Made by a program: the position numbers and the translations under genes
Notes under the pieces: model-generated
Databases searched by the model: none
Told to the model about the DNA's origin: nothing
What the model saw: only the letters and a program-made list of their open reading frames with translations
In this document: positions 689 through 63,256 of the stretch, piece by piece
How the letters are laid out: each line of letters starts with the position of its first letter
How positions within the stretch are numbered: position 1 is the stretch's first letter
IMG/VR virus record: IMGVR_UViG_3300038621_000255
Span: 1 to 63,256 of that record
DNA: 63,256 bases
Source of the DNA: a virus
Direction: 5' to 3' (one strand)

Positions 689-1831
689 TTATAATTTATC
701 TGCATCCAAGGCTACGGGCATTATCAGGTGTTCCATATCCCAATCACGATCCATGCCGGATGTAAGCCCTAAAACAGCAGGGCTTGTTGGATCATTTATT
801 TTTAAAACCACCTGGCTCTCTTCCATCTTCTCAAAAGCTTTTAGCGCGTCCTGAAGATATGAGGCATTGAAGGCAATCTTGAGATCGCTGGGGGTATCGT
901 CGGGGGATTGGATCTCTAGGAAGTATTCCCCTTTCCCTCCTTCCCCTTCTGCTGTTACCAGGGCTTTATCGCCTTGGAAGTGAATTTGTACAACCCCATT
1001 CTTCTTCTTCGAGAAGGTGGCGACGAAGTTAATTACAGCCTGGGATTGCTCCACATCTAGTACTACCTCGTGGGTGAAAGAATCGGGAAGTAGCTGCTTG
1101 TATGCTGGGTACTGGCGTTCGTAGGTGGTAGCGAACACCCTGCCACTTTCCCCAGATATTTCCACATTCTGCCCTTCCGAGCGTATCCCAATATTTTCTT
1201 CCTCTTCGTTATTCATTGTTACGTGGAAGGAATATACTAGGCAAGAGGGGAGGATTAACTCTGCCCCCGCTTCCCCTAGCAAGTCCCAATCCCGGAATAT
1301 AGCCAATCGATGTCCATCCGTTGCAGCTGCTTCTACTTTGCTACCTCCTTCAAGATAAATCCCCTGTAATACGTCTTTGATGGGATCTGTTGAGGCGGCA
1401 TATCCGATAGCACCAAACAGAGCCGCCCAGCGGGAAAAATTACCCTCGAAAATGGGGGAATTGTCTACCAAATTGGGGATCTTTGGTAGTTCGTCTGGGT
1501 TCATTCCACGGATCCATGAATCGTTAATCTCTAGAGAGAATTCGTTCTCGCTACCCTGCTCGTGATACAGGTTAATAGCATCGTCGGGGAACGATGCTAT
1601 TGCCCTTGTAAGCAATGCGTGGGGGACTGCCAGATCTAGTTTTTCTTCGATTAGTTCTTTGTCGAGGTGAGTAGAAATCTCTACCCCAAGTTGTAGATTG
1701 TACCCTTTGAGGGTTAAGGAATCCTCTTCTTTTAATAGGTGGACGCACCCTAGGGTTGGGTGTTGGGGTTTATTAGGAATTGAAGGTTTTACCCTCTTCA
1801 ACACCGATTGAAGTACTTTCTTTTCTATCTC
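689..1831 (-). CDS. dnaN: DNA polymerase III beta sliding clamp
   Basis: A 380-aa protein of normal length for DnaN, the ring-shaped clamp that tethers polymerases to DNA. Family-like segments include PHALLTRAIASFP, AATDGHRLAIF near the middle and an ending resembling the usual MPV(R/A)L tail (LIMPVALDADKL). The ATG at 1831 is chosen because AGAGGT lies just upstream. A GTG at 1876 would add 15 residues without a good ribosome binding site. DnaX and HolA are encoded at 44.9-47.1 kb, so clamp and loader are in different transcription units. Clamp genes are uncommon in phages of this size. The identification is firm. Confidence 0.93.
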   Translation of the reverse strand, partial: EIEKKVLQSVLKRVKPSIPNKPQHPTLGCVHLLKEEDSLTLKGYNLQLGVEISTHLDKELIEEKLDLAVPHALLTRAIASFPDDAINLYHEQGSENEFSLEINDSWIRGMNPDELPKIPNLVDNSPIFEGNFSRWAALFGAIGYAASTDPIKDVLQGIYLEGGSKVEAAATDGHRLAIFRDWDLLGEAGAELILPSCLVYSFHVTMNNEEEENIGIRSEGQNVEISGESGRVFATTYERQYPAYKQLLPDSFTHEVVLDVEQSQAVINFVATFSKKKNGVVQIHFQGDKALVTAEGEGGKGEYFLEIQSPDDTPSDLKIAFNASYLQDALKAFEKMEESQVVLKINDPTSPAVLGLTSGMDRDWDMEHLIMPVALDADKL

Positions 1832-1879
1832 CATGGCTTTACCTCTATGGATGTTTTCTATCCATAATTCTACCACGCT

Positions 1880-20135: not shown

Positions 20136-23100
20136 ATGGATTTACATAAAAGTCAATCATTTACAAAAACCCCATTTAAATTACCCCGTGGACAAGGCAA
20201 GCGGGGCGGCACCTGCCCGGTTTGCCAACGAAAAGACAATTGCCTAATTTCGGATCGCCTTGATTGGGCGATTTGTTGGAAGCATTCAAGGAATAGAGGG
20301 GAATGGGTTTCCACCCCCGTAGGTTGGCGATATGTGAAGGAAGCCAAACACAATATGGGTGGCTTCCACGTGTTGGTATTGCAGGGGGTAGGAAACCAGT
20401 TGAAGGTAGGTAAGGATTTATTCCCCACTTACCCCCAGCGCGTGCCGTCCCAACGGAAGAAGCAAAGGAAAGATAGTAAGAAATCGCCAAACTTCCCCAA
20501 GTTGGAAGATAGTGAAATTAGTCGGGCATATAGATTGATCGCCGCCCAGAAGGGCATCCACAAAAAAGATAGAGAAAGGTTGCAGTTGCGAGGGTTGCAA
20601 CCTTGGCAAATCGAAGATTGGGCGAGTAAAGGATTCTATTCCCATGTTAAAAATCAACTTGTATCAGGGGTTTCACATCCCTTACCGGGGTTGAGTTCCG
20701 ATCTTTCTCGTACCGTAGGATCTACAGGTCTGTTTATCCCTGCCCAGAGAGCCAACGGTAAGATTGTGGGCGGGCAAATTTGGGCAAGACAAGGATCGGC
20801 GAAGTATCTTTACTTGAAAGGTGGTTGCCAGGTACGGAAGGAAAATAATCGGAAAGGAAGGGAGAGCGCCCCCTTGCAAACCGTGGCGTTCCCTTCAGTT
20901 CGTAAGAACGCCCCAAAGTATCAACAAGCCCATTTAAATTTGCAGGCAACCTCGCCCCGCAAAGGGCAGGGGACATCTAATGCGATCGCGTCCCTTACTG
21001 ATTCCCTCGGCGTGGAAGTAGCAAGGACTTCCAAGGAATTCCAGCGAGAGGATCACCCTGGTAGCCACTATCAAGCTTTGATTTTGGGGTTGCAACTCGC
21101 TTTAGAAGTTGGAGTGGGAAACCTAGAAATTCTCGGGCTTGGTGGTATTCTAAAGCATTTCCAAGGGGAGTCCAGCCATGGACATCACTATCCCCACGCT
21201 TGCTACCCGGTGCGGTCGCAACTCCAATTGCTGCACAAGATTGCTTTATACTTACTGGATAAGCAGGGGCAGTACCACCTCTACAGTGAATCCCCCTCCT
21301 TGGGTGCTGGAAAGGACACGCATCCAGGAGAACGCTACTTTGATACCAAAGAGGTGTGGCTAACTGAGGGGTTACTCAAACCCTGGCTTACCGCTAGTTT
21401 TTGGAATCGGATTGTGATCGGGACGGTGGGCGGCACTCACGCTAGCGCAATCGATTTCGAGCCGAACTTAAAAACTTTAGATCCGGAAATAATGCGGTTT
21501 TTACCCGATGCTGGTGCAGTTGAAAACCGCTCGCAGGTGCCCTTTGTAACCAAAGAATCCCTAGAGGTTGTGCAAAATTTGGGTTACCCCTTGGAGATTG
21601 GTTGGTGGGGGCAGCAATCGAAACCCCGAAATGACCAAGAAAAACTGGTGAAAGGGGACATCGACGAAATATCCTTGGATACGGAAATCCAATGGATCTC
21701 ACCACAGGAATTTTGGCAAAAGCACCCAAAAGCCACACAAAAGGCTCTATTTGGGGAACCATTCAAGCCGGGACTGAAAAAGGTAGATTCCCCCGTATCT
21801 CACCCACGTCCACACCAACCAAAGCTCCAGCCCTTCCGCTTCTTCCGCGAAGATTATAGTCGAAAAGAGCTTGTGCAGCAGTTTTTGTCGCAGGGGCATA
21901 AGTTTATCTTCGATGCCTCGCCCACCGGAAGCGGCAAAACCCACGATTTCCGCGAGTGGGTACCCGAAGATTTTGGTGCCTCCCTGTTGCTACACGTTAC
22001 CGAAGATGTATTTTTAGATGATGCCCAAGATGGTTGGTCTGGTTATCGTGGGCGCGACCGTGGGCGCGTACGCCGCGCGGAAGACGAACGAATTGTGAAG
22101 GCTGAAAAAGATACCCCAAAGGAGGATCTTTACAAGCCCTCAAACTGCGAGAGGATGGACCTGGTTGATTTTCTTTACGCCCATAATGAAACCCCCTCGG
22201 AGAAGGGTGAGCCGTGCGCTACTTGTCCTTTTGAGAGTACCTGCCAGAAAGAACCAGGGTGGTATCAGCACGATCGCGCTCAGGCTTTGAAAAATCGGAA
22301 AATTCGCCTGCACCCACAAGCCCTAGATGAGGAGCTAATCCGCGATAAGCGGGGCAAGCAGTGGGTGAAGCTGAAAGATAAATCCCAAGCCGAATCCGGG
22401 ACCGTGATAATCGCAGACGATGTATCGCCCTTCATTCAACAGATTTCAATTGATGCAAGAGAAGTTAACGCTTTTCTAGCAAAATACTCTTATCGCCTAG
22501 AGGAGGATGCACCCTCCCTTCGGGCAATCTTATGTAAACTGCGGGAACTTTTGGAGGTCTCAGGGGATAGGACTGTCTATCACTCCGAAATTACCTCCCA
22601 TCTGCCCGAATTCAGGGATAGTGTGGAAGAAATCCAGGATTTGTTTGAGCTGCAGCAAAGAGAGATAATGCAGGCTTGGATGTCAGGAGAGGGGAAAAAA
22701 GAGGCAAGTCCAAAATGGTTGGGGCAATTCCTAGAAGCCCTGCAGGATGGAGGGTTCTTCCACGTTTACCAAGGCACCTTGAATATCACCACGAAGAACC
22801 AACGCTTTATCCGGGCGTTAAATAGCCAGGGAGTTCGAGCGGTAATATTTGCGGATGCCACTGGAGACAGCCGTTACCTAGCAAGGTGGCTAGGTTTGGA
22901 TAGCGAAATTCCTGCAATCGCAGAAGAAATACCAGAGCAGAACAAAGCCCATGTTCGTATTCAGCAGCTTACTGGATTGGGCGATCTGGGGCATTCCCGG
23001 AGTTATCGCCAACAGGAAGCAGTTGCTCAGCTCAAAGAGAGCTTGGAACTTCTGTATCCCGAATACGGTACGATTGACCTGAAAAAAAGCAAGGGAAGGG

Positions 23101-23996
23101 CTAACCAGCTACAGTTAAACTGGCACTCTTCCAGCCGGGGGAGCAATGCCGCCAAGGCTAAAGCGGGGCTGCTCCTAATTGGCACGCCGCGCCCCAACTT
23201 AGCTTCGGTGGTAGCGGAATATACCCTTCTAACAGGGAAGGAACCGAATCTAGAGGAGCAGATTAGCTCCTACCCGATGCGGTGGCAGAATACGGATAGC
23301 CATTGGTGCAAGAATGTGCGGGAATCAAAAGATACAGCCTTTTCAGAGTATTACTACCAACGTACTTTAAATGAAATTGAGCAGGGAATTGGGCGGCTGC
23401 GAGGGAACCGCCGCGCTGGGGAAGAGCTAGAGGTTTTGGTTGTAAACGAGTTTCCTTTGGATAGGGATTGTGAGGTATTTGATATCTGGGATTGGTTAGA
23501 GAGTAGAGTGGAAAATCGCTCAGTGGAAGTGCCCAAGGGTTGTAGCTCCTTGGCGGCTTTAAGCGATCGCGAGATTGAACAAGCGGCGCGTGCTTGCTAT
23601 CTGAATTCGGGAAAAATTAGACAATCCGATGTAGCTGAATTGCTAGGTGCAAGCCAGCCATTGATTGCCAAATATTTTGCCCAGCCAGGTAAGTGTTGGA
23701 AGTCTTTCAAGGAAGAAATCGCGGCGAGTAGCGACCGTGGGGAGGTCTCCCAGCAGGAAGAATCTACAGAGGAGATACAGCAAGGCGATTGCGTAGAGGT
23801 ACAACACCAAAGTGGGAAGTACAGAGGCAAAGCTGTGGTACTTCGGAGAGATGGCGATAATTGCCTAATTGAGTTTGCCGATGGCTCCCTATCCTCTATA
23901 CCTATCCCATTGGGGCTTATGAGGAAAGTTGAGGTTAATTTTAAAAAGTCGTTGACAAATAAAGATTGGCTAGGCTATAGTAACAATAGAGCTTGA
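20136..23996 (+). CDS. CyRepA1-like plasmid primase-helicase
   Basis: A 1286-aa protein. An N-terminal zinc site is CPVCQRKDNC...CWKH (residues ~27-50). A degenerate RNase H-like segment follows around 270-390. Then comes a Toprim-like VWLTEGLLKPW and VIGTVGGTHAS (~408-435), as in DNA primases. A helicase core follows: Walker A DASPTGSGKTH (~590), IIADD, and QGIGRLRGN as motif VI (~1090). A Cys cluster C-x22-C-x2-C-x5-C lies between Walker A and IIADD. The C-terminus has an HTH-like and a beta-barrel-like segment. Length and order match cyanobacterial CyRepA1 plasmid replication proteins, which prime and unwind DNA at the origin. The family call is from memory. Confidence 0.78.
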   Translation: MDLHKSQSFTKTPFKLPRGQGKRGGTCPVCQRKDNCLISDRLDWAICWKHSRNRGEWVSTPVGWRYVKEAKHNMGGFHVLVLQGVGNQLKVGKDLFPTYPQRVPSQRKKQRKDSKKSPNFPKLEDSEISRAYRLIAAQKGIHKKDRERLQLRGLQPWQIEDWASKGFYSHVKNQLVSGVSHPLPGLSSDLSRTVGSTGLFIPAQRANGKIVGGQIWARQGSAKYLYLKGGCQVRKENNRKGRESAPLQTVAFPSVRKNAPKYQQAHLNLQATSPRKGQGTSNAIASLTDSLGVEVARTSKEFQREDHPGSHYQALILGLQLALEVGVGNLEILGLGGILKHFQGESSHGHHYPHACYPVRSQLQLLHKIALYLLDKQGQYHLYSESPSLGAGKDTHPGERYFDTKEVWLTEGLLKPWLTASFWNRIVIGTVGGTHASAIDFEPNLKTLDPEIMRFLPDAGAVENRSQVPFVTKESLEVVQNLGYPLEIGWWGQQSKPRNDQEKLVKGDIDEISLDTEIQWISPQEFWQKHPKATQKALFGEPFKPGLKKVDSPVSHPRPHQPKLQPFRFFREDYSRKELVQQFLSQGHKFIFDASPTGSGKTHDFREWVPEDFGASLLLHVTEDVFLDDAQDGWSGYRGRDRGRVRRAEDERIVKAEKDTPKEDLYKPSNCERMDLVDFLYAHNETPSEKGEPCATCPFESTCQKEPGWYQHDRAQALKNRKIRLHPQALDEELIRDKRGKQWVKLKDKSQAESGTVIIADDVSPFIQQISIDAREVNAFLAKYSYRLEEDAPSLRAILCKLRELLEVSGDRTVYHSEITSHLPEFRDSVEEIQDLFELQQREIMQAWMSGEGKKEASPKWLGQFLEALQDGGFFHVYQGTLNITTKNQRFIRALNSQGVRAVIFADATGDSRYLARWLGLDSEIPAIAEEIPEQNKAHVRIQQLTGLGDLGHSRSYRQQEAVAQLKESLELLYPEYGTIDLKKSKGRANQLQLNWHSSSRGSNAAKAKAGLLLIGTPRPNLASVVAEYTLLTGKEPNLEEQISSYPMRWQNTDSHWCKNVRESKDTAFSEYYYQRTLNEIEQGIGRLRGNRRAGEELEVLVVNEFPLDRDCEVFDIWDWLESRVENRSVEVPKGCSSLAALSDREIEQAARACYLNSGKIRQSDVAELLGASQPLIAKYFAQPGKCWKSFKEEIAASSDRGEVSQQEESTEEIQQGDCVEVQHQSGKYRGKAVVLRRDGDNCLIEFADGSLSSIPIPLGLMRKVEVNFKKSLTNKDWLGYSNNRA
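23952..23981 (+). promoter_or_regulatory. Promoter of the shared TTGACA family
   Basis: TTGACA 23952-23957, an 18-bp spacer, TATAGT 23976-23981, then AACAATAG. It lies in the 3' end of the primase-helicase gene and drives the SSB-like gene. Confidence 0.8.
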
Positions 23997-24029: not shown

Positions 24030-25100
24030 ATGACTACCATTGATTTTGGAAACAGAAACTTGTTTGATTCTCTCCTACAGGTTTGGGAGGGGCACCTGAA
24101 ACCCGATACTATTGTTCCTTTGGGTCAGTCCGATCTAGATCGGATGATAGAAGAGCTGGAAAATGACGGATTGCCCGATTCTGTTTTAGATAATGTCTGT
24201 CAAGCCTCTAACGCCTTGTTAGAGTTCGTGGGGACTTTATCAAAAGATCAGGAACCAGATTGGGAAAACATCTTGGCAATTAAATCTTCCCCACAGGGGG
24301 AGATCGATAGGGTTTACACACCTATCCTTTGCTTGAATAGTCAGGGTCAGTTGGCTATACGGTGTGGGAATAATTTTTTCCCTGTGAACCAGAATGGTAA
24401 GGAATTGACCTGCGGATCCCTTAAGGGAGAAGTCGAGTTCGAGAAAATTAAAAACGGTGAAAAGGAAGCTCCAGAAGTCTCCGTAGAGTGGGGGGACTAC
24501 GAGCAAAAGAAAACCTTTCGGACGGTTGCGATTCTGAGTTCGGAGGCATTCCAGGATCCCGACAACACTAAAACAGCCATCAAACGCGGCGAGGATATCT
24601 CCCCTCTACTTCGCCAATTCGGAAATGGTAATGGTGGCAATTTCATCCGAATCACTCCATTAAAGGAACTTTCTGAGGGTTCTTACCAAATTGAGGAGAT
24701 TGGATTGGTTCCTTCTTCTTTCCGGTTTGGTCGGTATACCCTCTTAGTGAGGGATAGCGATGGGAACCAAGTAAAGACCATGCCCAATACCAAGGTTGCC
24801 CGGGCACTATCAACAATGGAAAATGCTTTTTCGGTGAAATTCCCCTCAGATGAGGATCTACACGAAAGGATTCAAGCCCTAAGTGATTTTTACAGCGGGA
24901 AATTCTTGGTCATTAGTGGAAAGGAAAGCTGGGGACAGGGCAAGGTTCGTGTGCATGCGAACATATATATGCACGCCCCAGAGCGTACGCCTGATGCGGA
25001 ACAAACAGAAGAACAAGTAGAAAACACACCAACACCGGAACCAGAGGAAAGCGCCCAAGAGCAACAAGAACAGGGAACGGAAGAGTTCATCCCGTTCTAA
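24030..25100 (+). CDS. Candidate SSB-like protein with EEFIPF tail
   Basis: A 356-aa protein with no clear homology by eye. About 300 folded residues are followed by a Glu/Gln/Pro-rich disordered tail ending exactly in EEFIPF. Bacterial and many phage single-stranded-DNA-binding proteins end in an acidic linker with DDIPF, which recruits primase, nucleases and helicases. Together with its own strong promoter and its position between the primase-helicase and the helicase, this suggests a replication SSB with a non-standard binding domain. A tail alone is not proof; a recombination mediator is an alternative. Confidence 0.6.
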   Translation: MTTIDFGNRNLFDSLLQVWEGHLKPDTIVPLGQSDLDRMIEELENDGLPDSVLDNVCQASNALLEFVGTLSKDQEPDWENILAIKSSPQGEIDRVYTPILCLNSQGQLAIRCGNNFFPVNQNGKELTCGSLKGEVEFEKIKNGEKEAPEVSVEWGDYEQKKTFRTVAILSSEAFQDPDNTKTAIKRGEDISPLLRQFGNGNGGNFIRITPLKELSEGSYQIEEIGLVPSSFRFGRYTLLVRDSDGNQVKTMPNTKVARALSTMENAFSVKFPSDEDLHERIQALSDFYSGKFLVISGKESWGQGKVRVHANIYMHAPERTPDAEQTEEQVENTPTPEPEESAQEQQEQGTEEFIPF

Positions 25101-25634: not shown

Positions 25635-27239
25635 ATGACTGGAGAACTAAATACCGTGGTGAAAGAAAAACCACAAAAACCCCCTGAACTCTATCCCTTC
25701 CAAGAAAAATTCAAAAGGGATCTTAGGGTAAAGATCCGCGAAGGCAATTCCCGGATTGCCTGCGTAGCCCCCACAGGTAGTGGGAAAACGATCCTAATGG
25801 GGTCGATAATCGAAGGGGCAACCGAGAAAGGCAAGAGGGTCTTGCTGATCGTGCATTTGGACGTACTCGTAGGGCAATCCTACGAGAAGATTGCCCAGTT
25901 CATTTCCCCCGATAAAATCGGTTTTATTAAAGCTGGCTGGGAGGAAAATCCCAGCGCCCCTGTACAAATCGCTTCAATTCAAACCTTACAAAGACGAGAC
26001 TGGTGGCGAGAGCAGTTAATCCCCGATCTTATTTTCTTTGATGAGGCGCATGAAACTGCCTTCCACCAACTGGGGAAAGAGATAACCCACTCTATCTTCC
26101 CGCATTCTTTCGTTTTCGGATTCACGGCAACCCCGTGGAGGTTATCAAAGCACGAGAGTTTTTCGGATCACTTTCAAGATTTGGTGCAAGCTCCCCCACC
26201 GGGCAAACTCCAAGAACAGGGGTTTTTGTGCCCCCTGGAATATTATTCCGTTGGTAATCTGGATCTGTCGGAAGTTTCTTCCAACGGGGACTTTATCCAA
26301 AAGGACTTGGAGATCGCTGTAGATAAACCCGAAGTAGTTAAGAATGCGGTTGATAACTGGGAGAGGATCTGTCCCGAGAAGCGCACCATTGCCTTTTGTG
26401 TCACTATCAACCACGCCAAGTCAGTGGCTCAGGAATTCCAAAGCAGGGGTTATAGAGCTGATGTAGTTTCCTCCGAAACCCCCAAGGAAGAGCGCGATCG
26501 CTTATACTCTTCCCTGGAAAATGGGGAATTGCAAGTGCTGGCTTCGGTGGATGTTGTTTCGATTGGGTTTGATAGGAAACCGATTGAGGTGGGTCTACTG
26601 TTACGACCCACGAAGAGTCTAGGGAAGCATCACCAACAGATCGGTCGAATTATGAGGGTAGCCCCTGGGAAGGAGAAGGCAATTGTACTCGACCAAGCGG
26701 GCAATTGCCTACGATTCGGGCGCTTCGGTTTCCCAGAAGGGATTGAGGAATACAGTTTCGAGACCCCGCAGGAAAAGAAAAATGGCTTGCCTCCTTACAA
26801 AAAATGTCCCAAATGTGGGAGGCTTAATCTACTTGCTAACAAGTCTTGTGACTCTTGCCAATATGAGTTCCCCGGTAAGCCGAAGGAAACCTTTAAGGGG
26901 GAGCTAGGGAAAGTGGACCCCAAAACCCCCGATAAGGATTCTAAAGAAAAAAGAAAGCGATTCTTCCAAGGAAAACTTCGCCAGGCTTATCAACAGGGGT
27001 ACGCCCCCGGCTGGGCTTTCTTTAAATTCCAAGATCGGTACGGGGTTAAGCCTAGTCCCGCTTGGAAAAAGCTCTCCATATTTGAAGAGTTCAATAAGGA
27101 TAATGCTTTGCTTTACTTGGGTTATTTAAACCGGATAGCTCAAGTGAAGAGTAAAGATAAAGACTGGATTCAGCGGGAATTTAAAGCCCAATTCGGAAAA
27201 GGTCAAGAAGTAGACAACTTCCTAGATTCCAAATTGTAA
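25635..27239 (+). CDS. SF2 DEAH-type helicase with zinc ribbon
   Basis: About 534 aa. Motifs in order: Walker A APTGSGKT (~residue 48), FFDEAHE motif II (~138), GFTATPWR motif III (~165), and QIGRIMR motif VI (~340). After these come CPKCGRLN and CDSCQYEF (~390-410), a four-Cys zinc ribbon, and a helical C-terminus. This is the layout of phage and restriction-type SF2 translocases that unwind or remodel DNA in replication and recombination. The ATG at 25635 is preferred over TTG at 25626, though no good ribosome binding site is visible. It lies just upstream of the polymerase gene. Confidence 0.88.
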   Translation: MTGELNTVVKEKPQKPPELYPFQEKFKRDLRVKIREGNSRIACVAPTGSGKTILMGSIIEGATEKGKRVLLIVHLDVLVGQSYEKIAQFISPDKIGFIKAGWEENPSAPVQIASIQTLQRRDWWREQLIPDLIFFDEAHETAFHQLGKEITHSIFPHSFVFGFTATPWRLSKHESFSDHFQDLVQAPPPGKLQEQGFLCPLEYYSVGNLDLSEVSSNGDFIQKDLEIAVDKPEVVKNAVDNWERICPEKRTIAFCVTINHAKSVAQEFQSRGYRADVVSSETPKEERDRLYSSLENGELQVLASVDVVSIGFDRKPIEVGLLLRPTKSLGKHHQQIGRIMRVAPGKEKAIVLDQAGNCLRFGRFGFPEGIEEYSFETPQEKKNGLPPYKKCPKCGRLNLLANKSCDSCQYEFPGKPKETFKGELGKVDPKTPDKDSKEKRKRFFQGKLRQAYQQGYAPGWAFFKFQDRYGVKPSPAWKKLSIFEEFNKDNALLYLGYLNRIAQVKSKDKDWIQREFKAQFGKGQEVDNFLDSKL

Positions 27240-27298: not shown

Positions 27299-29191
27299 AT
27301 GCAACTATTCGATACTAGCTTATACTCCCAGAATCAGCAACAATCAGCAGACTACCCAATCCCCCAGCCCAATTGGGAACTAATCCAAACCCAAGAGAGG
27401 GCAATCGAGGTGATTGAATCCCTAATGGGGTCAGACTCTCCCTCTCCCCTTGGCATAGATTTGGAAACCACCGGATTGCACCCCCAGGATAACTCCAAGG
27501 GAGAGTACCCACGGATCCGGTTGCTACAGATAGCACCGACCCCTGATTTTTGTTACATTCTCGACCTATTCTACCTAGATGTTGGGCAGTTGTCCCTGAA
27601 TCAACTATTCCGGGAGAGGCGGAAAGTCGCTCACAACTTTAAGTTTGAGGCGCTATGGTTGAAATCTATTGGGGTAGAAGTTCGCGCCCCCTTGTTCTGC
27701 TCCTTCCTAGCTGCCCAACTGATAGAGAATGGCAAACATGAAAAGAACAACAATGGCAACAAAGAATCCCCCTATAGTCTCCGTTCCGTTGCTAGGAAAT
27801 ACGCCCAGAAAGCCATCCCAAAGGAACAACAACGCTCGGATTGGTCGAAATTGCAACTGTCAAAAGAACAGTTGGAGTACGCCGCTAGGGATGCGGCGAT
27901 CCTCCTGGAAATCCGTGAGGCTCAATTAGAACCCTTGAAATCGAATGGGCTAATAAAGGTTGCCCAATTGGAATTTAGAGCGGTCCTTGCATTTGCCCAA
28001 CTTGAATACGAAGGTGTGCTTCTAGATTGGGAGAGGCTAGAGGGTATCCGACAAGGTGCGATCGCCAAGTTGGAACCCGCTAGGCAAGAGTTTCTGAAGG
28101 CTCTAGATAGCGAGATAGGGCTGGAAAAAGATATTTTTGGGGGTTACGCCTTTAACCCCCGCTCGAACGAACAATTACTTGCTGCTTTCCAAAGGGCAGG
28201 TATCCCGGTTAGGGATGTTCGTAAGGAATCCCTAGAGCCTTTAGCCTCAGATTATCCCTTGATTGAAAGGTACTTGAGTTATCACCGAATCGAAACTCAA
28301 ATCGCTGATATTGAGAAGTATTACCCATCCAAAGCACGGAAGCATATCCCTTGGGATTCCGCTACTGGGAAGATCTTTCCCGGGTATTGGCAAATCGGAA
28401 CAATATCGGGACGTGCAAGCTCGAAAGAGCCTAATATTCAAAACCCACCAAAAGGGGAATTCCGAGAATGTGTCATCCCGGAATCTGGTAAAAGGTTTGT
28501 AGTAGGCGACTACAGCCAGGCGCATCCCCGGATTGTGGCTAAGGTCTCCTGCGATGCTGCATTCACTCAGGTTTTCCAAAATGGTGAGTGCTGCTACTCC
28601 TACGAAGCTTCTACCCTTACTGGCAAGCCGATTGAGCAAATTAAGCGGGAACACAAAGAGAAGACCAGCAACGACCGGAATGACGCGAAACCAGTAGTTT
28701 TGGGCTTTATTTATGGGCTTTCCCCTGGTGGTTACGTTCGGCAGGTACAAGGGAAACACACTGAGGCTTTTGCACGAAAAGCCCGTAACCAATTTTTTAA
28801 AACCCACCCAGAGGTCGGAAATTGGCACGAACAGATTCAGCGGAAATTGGATATTTCCGCAATCGCCACCACCCAATCGGGACGTATTGTGGAGTTGAGG
28901 GGAAGAAACCGTAGGTTTAATTTTGCTGTGAACTTTCCAGTCCTGGGCACGGAAGCCGATATGATGAAATCGGCGATGGGTTTCCTGGTTGAGGAATTCG
29001 ATAAGTTACCCTACAAGGTAAGTTTGAAGATAATGATTCACGACGAAATCGTTGTTGAGTGCCCCTGTGGTAAAGAGGAAGAGGTTTCGCAAATTCTAGA
29101 TCGCGTCATGAGGGAAGCTAGCGATTTGCTTATTTCCCCTATTCCTGCCAAGGTGGATATCGAGTCGGGTGATTCCTGGGTTAAGCCTTAA
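27299..29191 (+). CDS. polA: PolA-type DNA polymerase (no 5' nuclease)
   Basis: 630 aa after AAAAAGGAG. It has a 3'-5' exonuclease domain (GIDLETTGL ~52, HNFKFE ~105, YAARDAAIL ~194) and a family A polymerase domain (motif A DYSQAHPRI, motif B RNDAKPVVLGFIYG, motif C MIHDEIVVE). The 5' nuclease domain is absent, as in many phage PolA proteins. By ungapped comparison with E. coli Pol I, Glu710 (steric gate) is His and Phe762 is Leu. Leu762 has been linked to temperate phage. Exo motif II has Glu where Asp is usual. It is the only replicative polymerase seen and would pair with the phage clamp. Confidence 0.93.
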   Translation: MQLFDTSLYSQNQQQSADYPIPQPNWELIQTQERAIEVIESLMGSDSPSPLGIDLETTGLHPQDNSKGEYPRIRLLQIAPTPDFCYILDLFYLDVGQLSLNQLFRERRKVAHNFKFEALWLKSIGVEVRAPLFCSFLAAQLIENGKHEKNNNGNKESPYSLRSVARKYAQKAIPKEQQRSDWSKLQLSKEQLEYAARDAAILLEIREAQLEPLKSNGLIKVAQLEFRAVLAFAQLEYEGVLLDWERLEGIRQGAIAKLEPARQEFLKALDSEIGLEKDIFGGYAFNPRSNEQLLAAFQRAGIPVRDVRKESLEPLASDYPLIERYLSYHRIETQIADIEKYYPSKARKHIPWDSATGKIFPGYWQIGTISGRASSKEPNIQNPPKGEFRECVIPESGKRFVVGDYSQAHPRIVAKVSCDAAFTQVFQNGECCYSYEASTLTGKPIEQIKREHKEKTSNDRNDAKPVVLGFIYGLSPGGYVRQVQGKHTEAFARKARNQFFKTHPEVGNWHEQIQRKLDISAIATTQSGRIVELRGRNRRFNFAVNFPVLGTEADMMKSAMGFLVEEFDKLPYKVSLKIMIHDEIVVECPCGKEEEVSQILDRVMREASDLLISPIPAKVDIESGDSWVKP

Positions 29192-41142: not shown

Positions 41143-41629
41143 GGGACTTCGCCTCCTTCGATAAGGATATCATCCCCATTTTAATCAATCCCTCGCCGAT
41201 AAACATATCCCTCGCCACGGCACTTTCCCCACTGTTAAACGGCGTTTCGTAGAAAATTTCCCGAATTCCCGCCGAAATCAATAGTTTCAAACAAGACAAA
41301 CAGGGTTCTAAAGTAACATAGATGCTAGCGCCTGCAGTGGCAATCCCGTGTTTGGCAGCTTGCGCGATCGCATTAGCTTCCGCATGAACCGCACGCGACG
41401 GCAACTCCCTACTACCGGCATCGCAGCTACTCAATCCCGGATAGCAATATCCTTGTGCGATACAGTGCGGCGAACCGCTGGGAGGTCCATTATATCCCGT
41501 TGCCAGTACCTGCCTATCCTTGACAACAACAGCTCCCACAGGAAACGCCAAACAGGTAGAACGGGTAGCCGCCAGTTTCGCTAGCATCAAAAAATATTCA
41601 TCCCAAGTGGGTCGCTGGTAATCAGGCAT
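41099..41629 (-). CDS. dCMP deaminase
   Basis: 176 aa. Zinc-dependent cytidine-type deaminase motifs are HAEANAI and PCLSCLKLL, with AVVVKDRQVLATGYNGPPSG as in dCMP deaminases. It converts dCMP to dUMP, the substrate of thymidylate synthase. The synthase is encoded directly upstream with an 8-base overlap, so the two steps are co-translated. An insertion between the GYNG and HAEA motifs carries extra Cys residues (CYPGLSSCDAG), common in this family as a second zinc site. Confidence 0.93.
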   Translation of the reverse strand: MPDYQRPTWDEYFLMLAKLAATRSTCLAFPVGAVVVKDRQVLATGYNGPPSGSPHCIAQGYCYPGLSSCDAGSRELPSRAVHAEANAIAQAAKHGIATAGASIYVTLEPCLSCLKLLISAGIREIFYETPFNSGESAVARDMFIGEGLIKMGMISLSKEAKSLATTSLELDPTSPP

Positions 41630-43100
41630 CTTGCGTATAAGGAATATCGTTCGTCAAACAGTTGTACGCTTTTTGTAGTTCTATACCCAAATATCCTGCA
41701 TGTTCGGCATGGAGAACGGGAGCATCCGCGCAAATATCTCGCATCAAATTCAATGGTTTTTTCCCGCGATAGGTAGCCACCACTTCGCCGCTACCAGGGG
41801 TTAGCCACTGTACGACAATTTGACCGTGTTCTAGTTCGATTTGGAAATTACCAGAGGGATCGTAAAAATCGCGATTCCGGCGTACAATATGGGCATACTG
41901 GTCTTGAATCAAGCGATCGGCATTATCCCAACAATCATCATAGATATGCGCCGACTGACTAACAGTAATTAACGGACCCAACCGCAAATTGTAGAAACTA
42001 CGTTGGTTTATGCGATCGCGAATATGCTTTTGTAACGCTCGCAATCCCATGGCATTCGCCGGCCAAGCCGCAAACATATCGTTGCTGCGTAGCGTCGCCG
42101 TCAGCGATAGTTCGTTGTCTACCACCCGAACCCAAATATGGTTCAAACAGGGACTTCCGCCTTTCTCGTGGTCGCGAACATCCCACAACGACATCACCGC
42201 ACTAGCAGCATCAATCTCACCAATCAGCTTTTCGATAACCTGTTCCACCTGGTCGCGTCCAAACCAAGAACGCAACCGCTGGCCGTACGTATATTTCACC
42301 CCTTCGCGATAGGGAGCATCGTTTAAAATTTGAGGAATGTATTCCTTGATAAAAGCACGGTCCACAGGCAAATAATTGGGTTCGGGAAAATAAAAATCCT
42401 CCGGTTCGTCGGTAATAACCGCCACCAAATCGATCAGTTCCTGCCACTGACCGTCGTAGCCAGTAGGTCGAATGGTTCCGGTAGTTTTGATGCGGTGGAT
42501 AATTTTGACCCAAGTTTCGGCAATAGTTTTGCCTTCAATGCGATGGCCGTAACGCGAACCAGGCAAAACCGTAGGCGTATTTTCCACCAACGGAAACTCT
42601 TGGGGTTCTCCCCACGGTGGCTGCCAATCTTGACTGGCATAGGATTTGGCCAGTTCGCAGGCCCTGTCTTTATCCGTCACCAACTGCCATTCAATGGCAT
42701 CCCGCAATTGCTGCAACACCGAGGCAGGGATTTCTTCGTCGATATATCCCGGTACTGGAGAACGCACCACCCAACAGGAACGACCGGTGTCGCTAACACC
42801 AGCAGTAAATCCATGCTCAAAAAAATCGCGCAGGCATTCGCAAGCTCTGGCGTTTTTGTCTTCTTTGGTAGCGTCGAGAATAACCAAATAGCGTACGTGG
42901 GGATTGGCAATTAAATTGCGAACCAATAAATTAATTCCCCGGGTCGCACTGTACAGCTGTCCAATTGCGGCGTACTCGTAGGGCTGTAGATGCTTGGCTA
43001 CGGTATCTCGCACCGTCCACCCGGTAACGATGGCAGTTTGCCCTGTACCGCAGATGACTTGATTTGGCTTGTATATGGGCTTGTATTTCCAACCTGGCAT
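41622..43100 (-). CDS. Thymidylate synthase with extra N-terminal domain
   Basis: 492 aa. The C-terminal part holds thymidylate synthase signatures: a catalytic-type GSPCLNHIWVRVV, LRSNDMFAAWPANAMGL, and LGPLITVSQSAHIYDD. The N-terminal ~170 residues (VICGTGQTAIVTGWTVRDTV; LNLLVRNL-like) resemble the MtrA/DUF4346-type domain fused to cyanobacterial thymidylate synthases. It makes dTMP from dUMP. ATG after GGGGGTAACC. Host-type domain structure suggests acquisition from a cyanobacterium (inference). Confidence 0.85.
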   Translation of the reverse strand: MPGWKYKPIYKPNQVICGTGQTAIVTGWTVRDTVAKHLQPYEYAAIGQLYSATRGINLLVRNLIANPHVRYLVILDATKEDKNARACECLRDFFEHGFTAGVSDTGRSCWVVRSPVPGYIDEEIPASVLQQLRDAIEWQLVTDKDRACELAKSYASQDWQPPWGEPQEFPLVENTPTVLPGSRYGHRIEGKTIAETWVKIIHRIKTTGTIRPTGYDGQWQELIDLVAVITDEPEDFYFPEPNYLPVDRAFIKEYIPQILNDAPYREGVKYTYGQRLRSWFGRDQVEQVIEKLIGEIDAASAVMSLWDVRDHEKGGSPCLNHIWVRVVDNELSLTATLRSNDMFAAWPANAMGLRALQKHIRDRINQRSFYNLRLGPLITVSQSAHIYDDCWDNADRLIQDQYAHIVRRNRDFYDPSGNFQIELEHGQIVVQWLTPGSGEVVATYRGKKPLNLMRDICADAPVLHAEHAGYLGIELQKAYNCLTNDIPYTQDA

Positions 43101-44286: not shown

Positions 44287-44895
44287 ATGACTACAACAAC
44301 AGAACAAACCCAAAACGACTTAGAAATCGCCACTGTTTTTATTAACGGTGAATCCAGCCTGGGGTTCGAAGACGATAACCTTGGATCCGATGCTGTACAG
44401 GCTTCGGCTGCCGAGGTCAATGAGCAACCTGATTGGAAACAAGAAAATCTTGAGCCAGGGGATGTTCTAGATCTCTCTGACGGTCTCGTCAGAGTTGACG
44501 ATCAACTCGACTTTGTAAACCCCGACAAGGAAGACGAACAGCAGGAGCAAGGAGAACAACAGGAGCAAACGTCCACAGAACAAGATACCGTTCAGGAAGA
44601 ACAGCAAGAGCGAAACGACAGTCAAGAAAGCAAGGGTATCAAACAAAAACTTGCCAGCATTCCCCACAAACGGCTAAAAGTAGCTATTTTAGCCTCCGCA
44701 GCTGTTGCGGTTTGGGGGACCGTCTACTCCGTCTTTACAACCCCATTTCCTTCCCTCTTGTTCGATGTCGTGGGGATTGGGTCTGCCATATGGTTCATCT
44801 ATCGGTATCTCTCGACTGCAGAGGGTCGGGAAAATTTGGAAAATGACTTACATCGTATTTGGAAACGAGTCTGGGATTGGGTACTTAACTACTAA
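44287..44895 (+). CDS. CAAD/CURT1-like membrane protein
   Basis: 202 aa. Residues 1-125 are acidic and Gln/Glu-rich, probably disordered. Residues ~128-200 have two membrane segments (VAILASAAVAVWGTVYSVF; LLFDVVGIGSAIWFIYRYL) followed by an amphipathic helix (EGRENLENDLHRIWKRV). The pattern P-x-L-F-x-x-V-G-x-G-x-x-x-W-F-x-Y-R-Y-L matches the CAAD domain. That domain is known from cyanobacterial aminoacyl-tRNA synthetases and CURT1 thylakoid-curvature proteins. A phage copy would place the protein in thylakoid or plasma membrane. It is co-transcribed with clamp-loader genes. The domain call is good; the role is unknown. Confidence 0.75.
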   Translation: MTTTTEQTQNDLEIATVFINGESSLGFEDDNLGSDAVQASAAEVNEQPDWKQENLEPGDVLDLSDGLVRVDDQLDFVNPDKEDEQQEQGEQQEQTSTEQDTVQEEQQERNDSQESKGIKQKLASIPHKRLKVAILASAAVAVWGTVYSVFTTPFPSLLFDVVGIGSAIWFIYRYLSTAEGRENLENDLHRIWKRVWDWVLNY

Positions 44896-44948
44896 GTAAG
44901 TACATGGGGGCAGCTACTGCCCCCCATTTTTATTGGAGGCAAGAAAGT

Positions 44949-46238
44949 ATGGCATTGCAGACTAAGTATCGCCCCAAGTTTTTTGCAGAGGTTCGGGGGC
45001 AAAACTTCACAGTCGAAACCCTGCAAAAGTCCCTAAAAGCAGGGAAGTTCGCCCAAGTTTACTTATTTGCAGGGCATCACGGTTGTGGCAAAACAACCAT
45101 AGCCCGGTTGCTGGCAAAGGCGTTGAATTGCCAACAACAGAATAACCACCCTAGTGCAGAACCTTGCGGCACTTGCCCCAGCTGTAAGGCGATAGAGAAA
45201 GATAACAGTTTAGATTATGTGGAGTTCGACGCGGCATCGAATTCAGGGATCGAGCATGTGCGCGAATTAATACAGAACGTCAGTTTATGCGCCGCTCAAT
45301 CTCGCTACAGAGTCTTTGTGGTAGATGAGTGTCACCAATTGAGTAGAGCCGCTCAAGATGTTCTGTTAAAAACGCTGGAAGAGCCTCCAGCCCACGTGGT
45401 TTTTATTTTCACCACAACCGACCCTCAGAGGTTGAACGATACGGTGCGATCGCGCTGCCATGAGTTTCGGTTTCGTTCCCCTACTCATGAGGAGAGTGGC
45501 GACCTTTTGAGGGAAGTGGCAGAGAAAGAGGGAATAGATATCACCGACCCAGCAATCGCCGAGTTGGTTGCGATTTCCAAGGGTAGCGTTCGGGATGCTC
45601 AAAAAAATCTCGACCTCCTAGCTTCTAGAGGGGAACGAATCACCCCCGACCTAGTGCGGGAATTTGGTGGGGTGCTTGGGTTTCGCCAAATTTTGCCTAC
45701 GATCCAGGCGATCCAGAGTGCGAACTCCATCGGTGTGGTAAATAACCTGGATCCCCTATTTGCACAGTACCCTTGCGAAGAGATTTTGAGAAAAGTTTCG
45801 GAAATCTTCCGGGATATTTTTGTGCTAGCCGCGACCGGGGACGAATCCTTGTTGGAGAACCCCGTATCCTCTTTGGTGTGCGATCGCGGCGAGGCTGCTA
45901 AGAAATTGCAGAGACTCAAGGAAGCCTCCACCCAGTTGCACCGGGTGTCGGAACGACAGAAGCAAATCTGGTTGGAAGTTGTTTTGATGGAATTATGCAA
46001 ACTTTCTTCCTCATCCTCATCATCGCCGCCACAACCAGAACCAAAAAGAGAGACACCAAAGGAAGATAATCACGACCAGGTATTGCAGAAACTCAAACCT
46101 AGGCTTCGGCGAACTTTGCAACCCCAGTTGGTGAAAATAGAAGGGGATACCTGTTGGGTGAGATCGCGATCTCCCCTAAAATTGGTTGAGCCGGAATTGA
46201 AGAAGCTGGGTTATCAAATTAAGGAGGTCACGTCATGA
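44949..46238 (+). CDS. dnaX: DNA polymerase III gamma/tau clamp-loader subunit
   Basis: 429 aa from the ATG after TGGAGGCAAGAAAGT. Walker A is GHHGCGKTT (~residue 43). A four-Cys zinc site ends in CGTCPSC. VDECHQLS, KTLEEPP, FTTTDPQRL and the RSRC arginine finger follow. Domain III is present, then a short linker (SSSSSSSPPQPEP) and a ~60-aa tail, much shorter than full tau. Loads the sliding clamp as an AAA+ ATPase. Overlaps holA by 4 bases. The delta-prime subunit is not found here. Confidence 0.95.
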   Translation: MALQTKYRPKFFAEVRGQNFTVETLQKSLKAGKFAQVYLFAGHHGCGKTTIARLLAKALNCQQQNNHPSAEPCGTCPSCKAIEKDNSLDYVEFDAASNSGIEHVRELIQNVSLCAAQSRYRVFVVDECHQLSRAAQDVLLKTLEEPPAHVVFIFTTTDPQRLNDTVRSRCHEFRFRSPTHEESGDLLREVAEKEGIDITDPAIAELVAISKGSVRDAQKNLDLLASRGERITPDLVREFGGVLGFRQILPTIQAIQSANSIGVVNNLDPLFAQYPCEEILRKVSEIFRDIFVLAATGDESLLENPVSSLVCDRGEAAKKLQRLKEASTQLHRVSERQKQIWLEVVLMELCKLSSSSSSSPPQPEPKRETPKEDNHDQVLQKLKPRLRRTLQPQLVKIEGDTCWVRSRSPLKLVEPELKKLGYQIKEVTS

Positions 46239-47113
46239 AAATTCATGTTTTAGTTGGGGACTCAAGGTGGGAAATTAACCACCGAATCGGCGAATTGCTA
46301 TCCGGTTGGGGCGTTTCCCTTCGGGATGTCTCCACCTATGGGAACGATGCAAGTAGGGAACGGGTAGAAAGCGATCTGCGAATTTTACCTCTATTCTCTC
46401 CAAGCAAAGTGGTACTTTGGGAAGGTTGCAAGGTGCAAGATTTGGTAGAGCTTAGGGGTAGTTCGCAGTCGAATTTAGTTGCCGTTTCTACCAGTGCCGA
46501 TCCTCCTCAGTCTGAGGCTTGGGACTGGCTAAAGAAAAACGCCCAGGTAGAGGAATTCTATTTGCCCAAACCTTGGCAACACCAGAAGGTGCAGAAAAAG
46601 ATCCAGGAGATTGCCCAGAAACAACAGATTTTTATTGAAGAAGGGGCCGCCGAGGCTCTAGCAGAAGAGTATGAAATAGATTTCAATAGAATCGCTAAGG
46701 AGATGGAAAAACTTTCCATCTATCCGAAGATAGACGACTCTCTTGTCCGGCTGGCTTCTACTGGTTCCAAAACTTCGGTATTTGATCTAATCGAAGCCCT
46801 AATTGATGGAAGGACTGGAGAAGCGTACAAGACAGTGAATCACCTAGTACAGCAGGGGCAAAGTCCCTTACAGATCCTTGGTTTTTTACTGGCAGAACTT
46901 GATCGCTATCTGCGGGTAAAACTGGATCTTGATATTTCTAGCATGTCGCCGGCAAGACGGCGATTTCTAAAAAAACGACTCAGTGCAGTTTCCCTTGATT
47001 TTCTGAAAACGGCATTAGAGCTAACGATTGATACCCAGAATCTATTGAGTGAAGGAAGCGACCCACTATTGTGTCTCCAAACTTTAGTTCTGGAGCTGTC
47101 TCTGGAGAGATAA
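46235..47113 (+). CDS. holA: DNA polymerase III delta clamp-loader subunit
   Basis: 292 aa. FLIxG-like start (HVLVGDSRWEI), FYLPKPWQHQKVQKKIQEIA, AAEALAEEYEIDFNRIAKEM, EKLSIYP and the C-terminal collar region (LQILGFLLAELDRYLRVK) match HolA. Delta opens the clamp. Coupled to dnaX by ATGA. This operon order (dnaX-holA) is not usual in cyanobacterial chromosomes, where they are unlinked (general knowledge). Confidence 0.88.
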   Translation: MKIHVLVGDSRWEINHRIGELLSGWGVSLRDVSTYGNDASRERVESDLRILPLFSPSKVVLWEGCKVQDLVELRGSSQSNLVAVSTSADPPQSEAWDWLKKNAQVEEFYLPKPWQHQKVQKKIQEIAQKQQIFIEEGAAEALAEEYEIDFNRIAKEMEKLSIYPKIDDSLVRLASTGSKTSVFDLIEALIDGRTGEAYKTVNHLVQQGQSPLQILGFLLAELDRYLRVKLDLDISSMSPARRRFLKKRLSAVSLDFLKTALELTIDTQNLLSEGSDPLLCLQTLVLELSLER

Positions 47114-61714: not shown

Positions 61715-62950
61715 ATGCTAGCCCAACAACAAAAACAAGAATTTCCCACCCAGGCGACAGTCGCCAATCCGGTTTTTTACCGTACCTATAGCCGCCGCCA
61801 AGGCAATACCCACCGTGAGACTTGGCAGCAGGTGTGCGATCGCACAATTAACGGTTTGGTAAAACTCGGCAAGCTCAGCGACAAAGAAGCCAACCTTGTT
61901 CGCCAAAAATTAGAAAATTTCCAATCCCTCCCCTCCGGTCGTTGGTTGTGGGTCGGTGGCACCAAGTGGGTAGAGCAGCCGGAAAATTACCCCGGTGCTT
62001 ACAACTGCACTAGCACTAATGTGAGCGACTGGAGAGCCTTTGGGTTAATGATGAACCTGGCGATGCAGGGGTGTGGCACCGGTGCTAACTTAGAACCCCA
62101 GCACATCAATCAACTACCAACCATCTGCAATTACCTCCAAGTGGATGTTATGGGTGAGTTTGGTTCTGTTCCCAAGGAAAACCGGTGCGAGCAGACGCAG
62201 GTAGATCGCACCGGTGCCAATAGTTTCCAATTAACTGTTGGCGATTCAAGGCAAGGTTGGGTAGATGCATACACTTGGATTTTGGAAATATCATCGAATT
62301 CTGACCACGCCGGTTCCTTGGGATTTCCCGGTGAGGTAAGAGTAGAGGTAGATATCAGCCACGTTCGTCCCGCTGGTCAACCCCTGAAAGGATTTGGTGG
62401 CGTTGCCAATCCCACCAAGCTCCCCGGTCTGTTTACCCGCTGCGCAGATATTTTGAATGGTGCCGTAGGTAGGAAGTTGAACGAGCAAGAGTGCTGTTTG
62501 TTGATCGATGAGGCTGCTATTGTAGTTGTGGCAGGAAATATTCGTCGTACAGCGGGCATTCGTCAATTCCCTGCCAACTCCCCTCTGTACAAGATGAACT
62601 TGTGGCAACAAGGGGAAGATGGCAACTGGCGGATCGATCCCCAGCGAGATGCCCTGCGTATGGCGAACCACACCAGAGTTTACCATGGCAAGCCCAGTCG
62701 GGAAGGATGCATCGATGCGGTACGCAAGCAATTTTATTCTGGGGAAGGTGCCATTCAGTATGCACCAGAAGCGATCGCCCGCAGTAACGCGGATATTCTC
62801 GATCGACCAGAAATCAAACGAGAATTCTTAGAAATCTATAATTCTTTGGGCGTGGGAGAAGCCAAAAACTGGTTGCGGACCAACTATCCGCAGATGTCAG
62901 ATCGCGAAATCGAGCATCGCCTGCAGCGATATGGTCTCAACCCTTGCGGT
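61715..62950 (+). CDS. nrdJ: Class II ribonucleotide reductase, exon 1
   Basis: 412 codons ending at GGT of the active-site motif NPCG. NPVFYRTYSRRQGNTHRETW, SLPSGRWLWVGGTKWV, YNCTSTNVSDW (first redox Cys) and MQGCGTGANLEPQ are typical of adenosylcobalamin-dependent monomeric ribonucleotide reductases. The frame seems to stop at 62959, but that stop lies in the intron. Supplies deoxynucleotides together with dCMP deaminase and thymidylate synthase. The gene continues past the window end, and the matching C-terminus is at the window start. Confidence 0.92.
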
Positions 62951-63185
62951 ATCCTTTAATTTTGCCGCCCCTGGCAGCAATGTCAGGTGCCAAAGTGGGT
63001 GAATTGCCGGAACCCCTAACGCAAAAGGCGAGGGCAATCGGCAGCCAAGCTAGCCGGGGCTTCGGTCGGCTAGAAGGTTCAGAGACTAGAGGGTGAGTCC
63101 CAACAATAATCCCTCCACGAGCGCCCACTATCCCGAACGGGGATGAAGAGATAGTCCAATCCTGTAGGAAACTACAGATGTGATG
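62951..63185 (+). ncRNA. Group I intron in nrdJ
   Basis: 235-nt intron. The 5' exon end GCGGT pairs with the internal guide GCCGC (62964-62968), giving the required U-G pair at the splice site. P7 candidates are GACTA (63084-63088) with TAGTC (63152-63156). The intron ends in G (63185). Joining the exons restores NPCG-EIIGSNFFCNLSEVH in frame. No ORF inside, so no homing endonuclease. Self-splicing is expected for this class. Confidence 0.85.
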
Positions 63186-63256
63186 GAAATCATTGGATCG
63201 AATTTCTTCTGTAATTTAAGCGAAGTACACCTTAACCAAATCGACCCTAACAACGA
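63186..63256 (+). CDS. nrdJ: Class II ribonucleotide reductase, exon 2 (partial)
   Basis: Reads EIIGSNFFCNLSEVHL and on to DPNN in the frame set by splicing; runs off the window. Only 23 codons are visible. Confidence 0.88.

Follow-up and report, generated by a model that had tools for sequence, protein, structure and literature searches.

A divergent bacterial-type clamp and clamp-loader gene set lacking delta-prime on a tailed phage, probably of cyanobacteria

Introduction

Why would a phage without a Pol III polymerase encode a bacterial-type sliding clamp together with part of its loader? The question is raised by the virus record IMGVR_UViG_3300038621_000255, whose 63,256 bases, with no surrounding cellular genome, form the stretch analysed here (the window). 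A sequence-only reading had noticed dnaX and holA in one operon, with dnaN elsewhere, and considered the three together in one mobile element unusual, phages being thought either to borrow host clamps or to use T4-type ones. We conclude that the phage set is a divergent, delta-prime-less form of a module that also occurs on plasmids and in some phages. With a probability of roughly 0.6, the trio is a dedicated phage clamp and loader, that is, a processivity module of cyanobacterial origin, which would serve the phage's family-A polymerase.

Results

The phage genome

The source element is a tailed phage, with a Mu-type portal, a terminase, a contractile-tail sheath and a tape measure all encoded in the window (Pfam, PHROGs). 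Stray host DNA was rejected as a source of the trio, since these genes share its record. The host is probably a cyanobacterium, judging from a CAAD-domain protein, the plasmid-type relatives and the tree described below. A ribonucleotide reductase gene is found at both window ends:

61715-63256, right end: class II ribonucleotide reductase (RNR), N-terminal part and group I intron
1-269, left end: RNR C-terminal part (model positions 639-722 of 724)
62929-63178: group I intron (RF00028, 86 bits), within the RNR gene, immediately after the NPCG codons

Because both ends are pieces of one RNR gene, the contig probably represents almost the whole genome, circular or permuted. About 235 RNR codons (about 0.7 kb or more) are absent between the contig ends, and this gap could conceal a further gene. 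Two other genes deserve mention:

41622-43100, minus strand: methanogen-type thymidylate synthase fused to a DUF4346 pterin-binding domain, with an N-terminal stretch resembling methyltransferase subunit A
44287-44895, directly 5' of dnaX: CAAD-domain protein, of a Pfam family named after cyanobacterial aminoacyl-tRNA synthetases

Clamp and clamp-loader genes

44949..46238, plus strand: dnaX, short gamma-type clamp-loader ATPase, 429 aa (TIGR02397, 317.7 bits, cut-off 250)
46235..47113, plus strand: holA, delta subunit, 292 aa (TIGR01128, 100 bits over nearly the full length, cut-off 80)
689..1834, minus strand: dnaN, bacterial-type beta sliding clamp, 381 aa (TIGR00663, 153.3 bits, cut-off 137.65; three Pfam beta domains)

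The identities of DnaX and HolA are supported by Pfam and PHROGs, and that of DnaN is also backed by PHROGs; the bacterial-type operon and clamp gene that had been proposed are therefore real. Chance gene calls were ruled out, all three proteins passing curated NCBIfam cut-offs, and so was a misannotated T4-type loader, the models passed being bacterial equivalogs. The dnaN gene, distant from dnaX on the phage genome, had been placed at 689-1831; its start is actually at 1834, one codon upstream. The dnaX start at 44949 was kept, as it is preceded by the Shine-Dalgarno sequence ttggaggc, unlike the upstream ATG at 44904.

DnaX retains the Walker A motif (GHHGCGKT), the DE box, the SRC motif with the arginine finger and a four-Cys zinc site. 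Of the 28 chromosomal cyanobacterial DnaX sequences that pass the cut-off, 26 belong to open frames exceeding 600 aa. The phage protein has no long C-terminal part and thus no alpha- and DnaB-binding C-terminus of the tau type, and was classed as gamma-like; in E. coli tau, it is the C-terminal part that binds alpha. The holA start overlaps the dnaX stop by ATGA and has its own strong Shine-Dalgarno sequence, aaggaggt. HolA carries no Walker A motif, in line with delta. The best PDB match of its AlphaFold model is the B. subtilis delta subunit YqeN (3zh9, E 3e-10), and chains of the E. coli clamp loader come next. The model (pLDDT 79, pTM 0.41, so that the domain arrangement is unsure) suggests that HolA adopts the delta fold. 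The protein also contains an LF pair, in ILPLFSPSK, at the place that corresponds to the wedge by which E. coli delta enters beta.

No delta-prime apart from DnaX was found in the 63,256 bases (TIGR00678 matches DnaX only), and the record therefore does not hold the subunit that would complete a gamma3-delta-delta' loader of its own. A search of the same bases for Pol III alpha (PF07733) was equally negative. Both had been listed as missing by the sequence-only reading, rightly so.

Polymerase and neighbouring genes

20136..23996, plus strand: 1286-aa protein, putative replication initiator
24030..25100, plus strand: protein encoded between the Rep-like gene and the helicase gene; Pfam, NCBIfam and PHROGs give no family match
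25638..27239, plus strand: RadD-like SF2 helicase (ResIII/Helicase_C, phrog_16)
27299..29191, plus strand: family-A DNA polymerase with 3'-5' exonuclease (PF00476, 179 bits; PF01612)

PolA is the only family-A polymerase detected in the window. It scores 364 bits against NF011539, under the cut-off of 640, and is 28-33% identical to five cyanobacterial plasmid PolA proteins. No clamp-binding-like motif was found in it, either at the position where plasmid PolA proteins carry one (see below) or elsewhere by the pattern used. Over 26 phage proteins, matches to the clamp motif numbered 2, for 2.15 expected from shuffles. A counterpart of the RadD-like helicase adjoins holA on the Allocoleopsis plasmid (phmmer 2e-50).

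The 1286-aa protein has no match in Pfam, NCBIfam or PHROGs and is not matched by the CyRepA1 model. It resembles proteins on 90 plasmid records, cyanobacterial among the matches listed, and is probably a replication initiator, a role suggested by this resemblance. The phage may therefore be able to exist in a plasmid-like state. PMC10899382 describes helicase-like Rep proteins from plasmids of cyanobacteria.

Clamp modules on cyanobacterial plasmids

A search for the trio on cyanobacterial plasmids had been proposed and was successful. The HolA of an Oscillatoria plasmid, used as a tblastn query, retrieved 47 plasmid records, 42 of them cyanobacterial and 5 from Bacillota as counted over the matches listed, some being near copies. 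Thirteen cyanobacterial plasmids were inspected; a further record, from Enterococcus, was left out as it holds chromosome-like genes. A separate delta-prime gene is present in seven of the 13 and was not found in the other six, all of which have gamma and delta, with overlapping dnaX and holA in most. We refer to these two compositions, by labels coined in this analysis, as type I (without delta-prime: Planktothrix p1, Nostoc pNPM2, Oscillatoria pOSC7112.02 and pOSC7112.04, Stanieria pSTA7437.01 and Leptolyngbya BL0902) and type II (Brasilonema pBOCT1, Nostoc pC052_E, Trichormus plasmid C and others). The holA copy of pOSC7112.04 is divided between two reading frames (L005:7363-8318) and may therefore be broken.

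Pol III alpha was found in none of 14 records, namely the 13 plasmids and the phage. A family-A polymerase is encoded by five of the 13 plasmids: four are of type I and the fifth is that of Allocoleopsis, which has a delta-prime. A PF00476 search found none on the remaining two type I plasmids. The phage thus has the type I composition: gamma and delta without delta-prime, a family-A polymerase and no alpha. In type II modules, four polymerase genes scanned lie between dnaX and holA and belong to family B (NCBIfam):

L004:12437-14245, family-B polymerase ending QL[ST]LF
L161:3778-5565, family-B polymerase ending QL[ST]LF
L164:5140-6954, family-B polymerase ending QL[ST]LF
L165:4958-6775, family-B polymerase ending QL[ST]LF

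The plasmids of these four polymerases carry the full beta-gamma-delta-delta' set. All five polymerase genes read from type II plasmids, including a fragment, end in QLSLF or QLTLF, a canonical beta-binding motif. At a single aligned place, four of the five plasmid PolA proteins display a clamp-binding-like motif (QLPLF, QLSLF, QISLL and QISLL), absent at that place from the Stanieria protein. A link between polymerase and clamp is thus well suggested for the plasmids by their sequences; for the phage it may be proposed by analogy.

Other phages and viral contigs

In tblastn searches of INPHARED with the window proteins, DnaX matched 505 records and DnaN 44, some of which gave us the impression of short, unannotated, host-DNA-like sequences, and HolA matched none. 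The HolA of an uncultured phage (L092) matched seven INPHARED records; MS1 and Dp-1, both phages of Streptococcus, are among them. The Dp-1 annotation lists DnaN, DnaX and HolA plus a second gamma-tau-like gene, gp18, which is named delta-prime HolB in PMC4840434.

Of 128 DnaX loci from IMG/VR, 80 were retained for analysis. An HMM search was run on 50 records, 48 from the 80 DnaX-bearing ones plus two terminase relatives: HolA was over the cut-off in 15, and DnaN was detected at E 1e-3 in 30 but over the cut-off in only one. Within about 10 kb around the 80 DnaX loci, our own profiles detected HolA in 18, DnaN in 27 and both in seven. Neither HolA alone nor a five-row HolA profile found a relative by the IMG/VR pattern search; since the HMM search does find HolA in DnaX-bearing records, these negatives reflect the pattern search. 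The uncultured phage G283 encodes beta, gamma, a delta-prime-like gene and delta, and these are accompanied by portal, terminase, head protease and tail genes, which identifies it as a phage with the full set. In viral contigs L095, L113 and L122, dnaX and holA overlap and no delta-prime-like gene occurs in the stretch read.

Only two relatives of the terminase were found (43 and 38% identity), on records of 37.5 and 57 kb that are distant and possibly incomplete. They share some structural genes with the window, and one shares the helicase too; our profiles detected no DnaX, HolA or DnaN in either. Absence from related phages, named beforehand as a sign of accidental capture, is thus seen in these two distant records.

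Among published work, a Pseudanabaena phage, Pan1, has a DnaX (PMC9837993), and divergent oceanic HolB/DnaX clusters are reported in PMC12153180. In the literature covered here, we found no paper on plasmid-encoded bacterial clamp loaders, and phage-encoded bacterial-type clamp or loader proteins were met only as annotations (Dp-1, Nodularia, CL131, Pan1).

Phylogeny

Viral loci entered the first DnaX tree if they aligned over a stretch of 200 or more residues within a single domain, which left 38 of the 80. A scan of genome contigs gave four loci; the single cyanobacterial one is a chromosomal DnaX, and one of the three others was used as a tree row. The six plasmids without delta-prime form one group (SH-aLRT 100) and five of the seven with delta-prime another (98). 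The two types are also separated in the HolA tree (type I, five rows, 99; type II, six rows, 95). Neither of these single-gene trees places the phage, whose DnaX has an end branch of 1.86. In the DnaN tree, the phage has weak support (84) for a grouping with five type II sequences. For DnaX alone, in a set from which 20 further rows had been removed as long-branched or redundant, the AU test rejected neither phage plus type I (p 0.73) nor phage plus type II (p 0.76).

In the concatenated tree of DnaX, HolA and DnaN (29 rows, 1064 columns), the phage falls into a group (99) that also contains crown cyanobacterial chromosomes and both types of plasmid; its own branch is 2.9 long, and it lies outside a seven-chromosome clade (100) as well as outside the type I clade. 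The first DnaX tree disagrees: there, plasmid sequences and those of crown cyanobacteria form a group (98) without the phage. AU tests on the concatenated data gave p values of 0.32 for the phage with chromosomes, 0.049 with type I, 0.12 with type II and 0.033 with both plasmid types. The trio is at most 30% identical to any row of this tree. In our reading the trio is a separate and old lineage of cyanobacterial type, with long branches in play; these sequence comparisons make a recent capture from a chromosome unlikely.

Two peculiarities of the cyanobacterial sequences were noted. The chromosomal DnaX of one metagenome-assembled genome (L009:9986-12475) bears an apparent intein within the Walker B motif, between DE and CH. 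Beside its normal DnaN, one small cyanobacterial genome (G021, L224) encodes a further one that passes the cut-off at 158.6 bits.

Discussion

A phage clamp and loader

In the reading that we prefer, DnaX (gamma) and HolA (delta) would form an ATP-driven loader, opening the phage beta ring and closing it at primed sites. The loaded ring would then serve the family-A polymerase, and host Pol III would be bypassed. Most chromosomal DnaX have a long C-terminal part, which the short gamma is devoid of; it should therefore couple neither to host alpha nor to the host helicase. This reading is supported by the curated cut-offs passed, by the intact catalytic residues, by the operon with good ribosome-binding sites, by the LF pair of phage delta, by the clamp-binding-like motifs of plasmid PolA proteins and by the pattern of a family-A polymerase without alpha, shared with some plasmids. 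Against it stand the phage PolA without a clamp motif, the two type I plasmids without a family-A polymerase and the gap between the contig ends, where a further gene may lie.

The fifth seat of the loader would most likely be taken by host delta-prime, at about even odds. A hybrid loader of this kind, as the sequence-only reading had suggested, is plausible, although a very divergent gamma (end branch 1.86) would have had to keep its interface to the host subunit. The competing arrangement is a pentamer of four gamma and one delta, with the fourth gamma in the fifth seat; T4 gp44/gp62 follows such a 4:1 plan. We hold this two-gene loader to be possible but the less probable of the two. It agrees with the lack of a separate delta-prime in the phage and the six type I plasmids when seven other plasmids have one, with the dnaX/holA overlap in the phage and most of these six, and with the three viral contigs of like arrangement. 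An ATP site and the SRC residue, each required in such a ring, are present in gamma, but they do not discriminate, since gamma-gamma contacts need them anyway. Moreover, host delta-prime is always available, and E. coli gamma and delta alone perform poorly without it. The extended version, in which the phage and type I plasmids would share a minimal replicase independent of host Pol III, with a 4:1 gamma:delta loader and a beta ring for the family-A polymerase, appears somewhat unlikely.

The missing clamp motif in PolA would also suit a takeover, in which the phage clamp and loader target host replication proteins, displacing the host ring or recruiting Pol III, rather than PolA; beta is a common docking site of host proteins. 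We consider this improbable: gamma is without the alpha-binding C-terminal part of E. coli tau, no alpha is encoded by the phage or the 13 plasmids, and plasmid polymerases bear their own clamp-like motifs. Much less credible still is a recent accidental capture from one host chromosome, the genes having no function for the phage. The concatenated tree does place the trio with cyanobacterial sequences, but on a long branch of its own and at no more than 30% identity to any row, and reading frames and catalytic residues are intact. Comparison with host copies, the check proposed earlier, revealed no tight grouping with any sampled chromosome, which argues against recent capture; the trio lies outside the seven-chromosome clade, although joining it to chromosomes is not rejected (AU p 0.32).

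The supposed rarity of the trio does not stand, because many large cyanobacterial plasmids, Dp-1 and several IMG/VR contigs carry similar sets. Nor does the alternative between borrowed and T4-type clamps, the present phage, Dp-1 and G283 all having bacterial-type sets. Clamp-and-loader sets thus travel on mobile elements of cyanobacteria in which no Pol III polymerase was found, namely one phage and two or more plasmid lineages. From this follow two points that can be tested: which polymerase is able to use a bacterial clamp, and whether a loader can do without delta-prime.

Comparison with known systems

Among cyanophages, Nodularia phage vB_NspS-kac65v151 and its kin also have a bacterial-type gamma (DnaX), placed elsewhere in the tree. 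Aphanizomenon phage CL131 has a bacterial-type beta subunit according to PMC6293099. The CL131 and Nodularia phages differ from the present one in that the window HolA matches no INPHARED record. Streptococcus phage Dp-1 (gp10, gp17, gp18, gp19) likewise encodes bacterial-type beta, gamma and delta, but it has a delta-prime, gp18, and lies outside the cyanobacterial part of the tree. Type II plasmids share with the phage their own beta, gamma and delta, and differ by their own delta-prime and, in the four scanned, by a family-B polymerase. Type I plasmids resemble it in composition, with gamma and delta, neither delta-prime nor Pol III alpha, and a family-A polymerase on four of six; unlike them, the element described here forms virions, has dnaN far from dnaX, and encodes a PolA without the linker clamp motif. 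With T4 gp44/gp62/gp45 the possible likeness is the 4:1 loader plan, whereas the phage genes are bacterial DnaX, HolA and DnaN by curated cut-offs. If the minimal replicase proved true, it would represent a T4-like scheme arrived at with components of Pol III.
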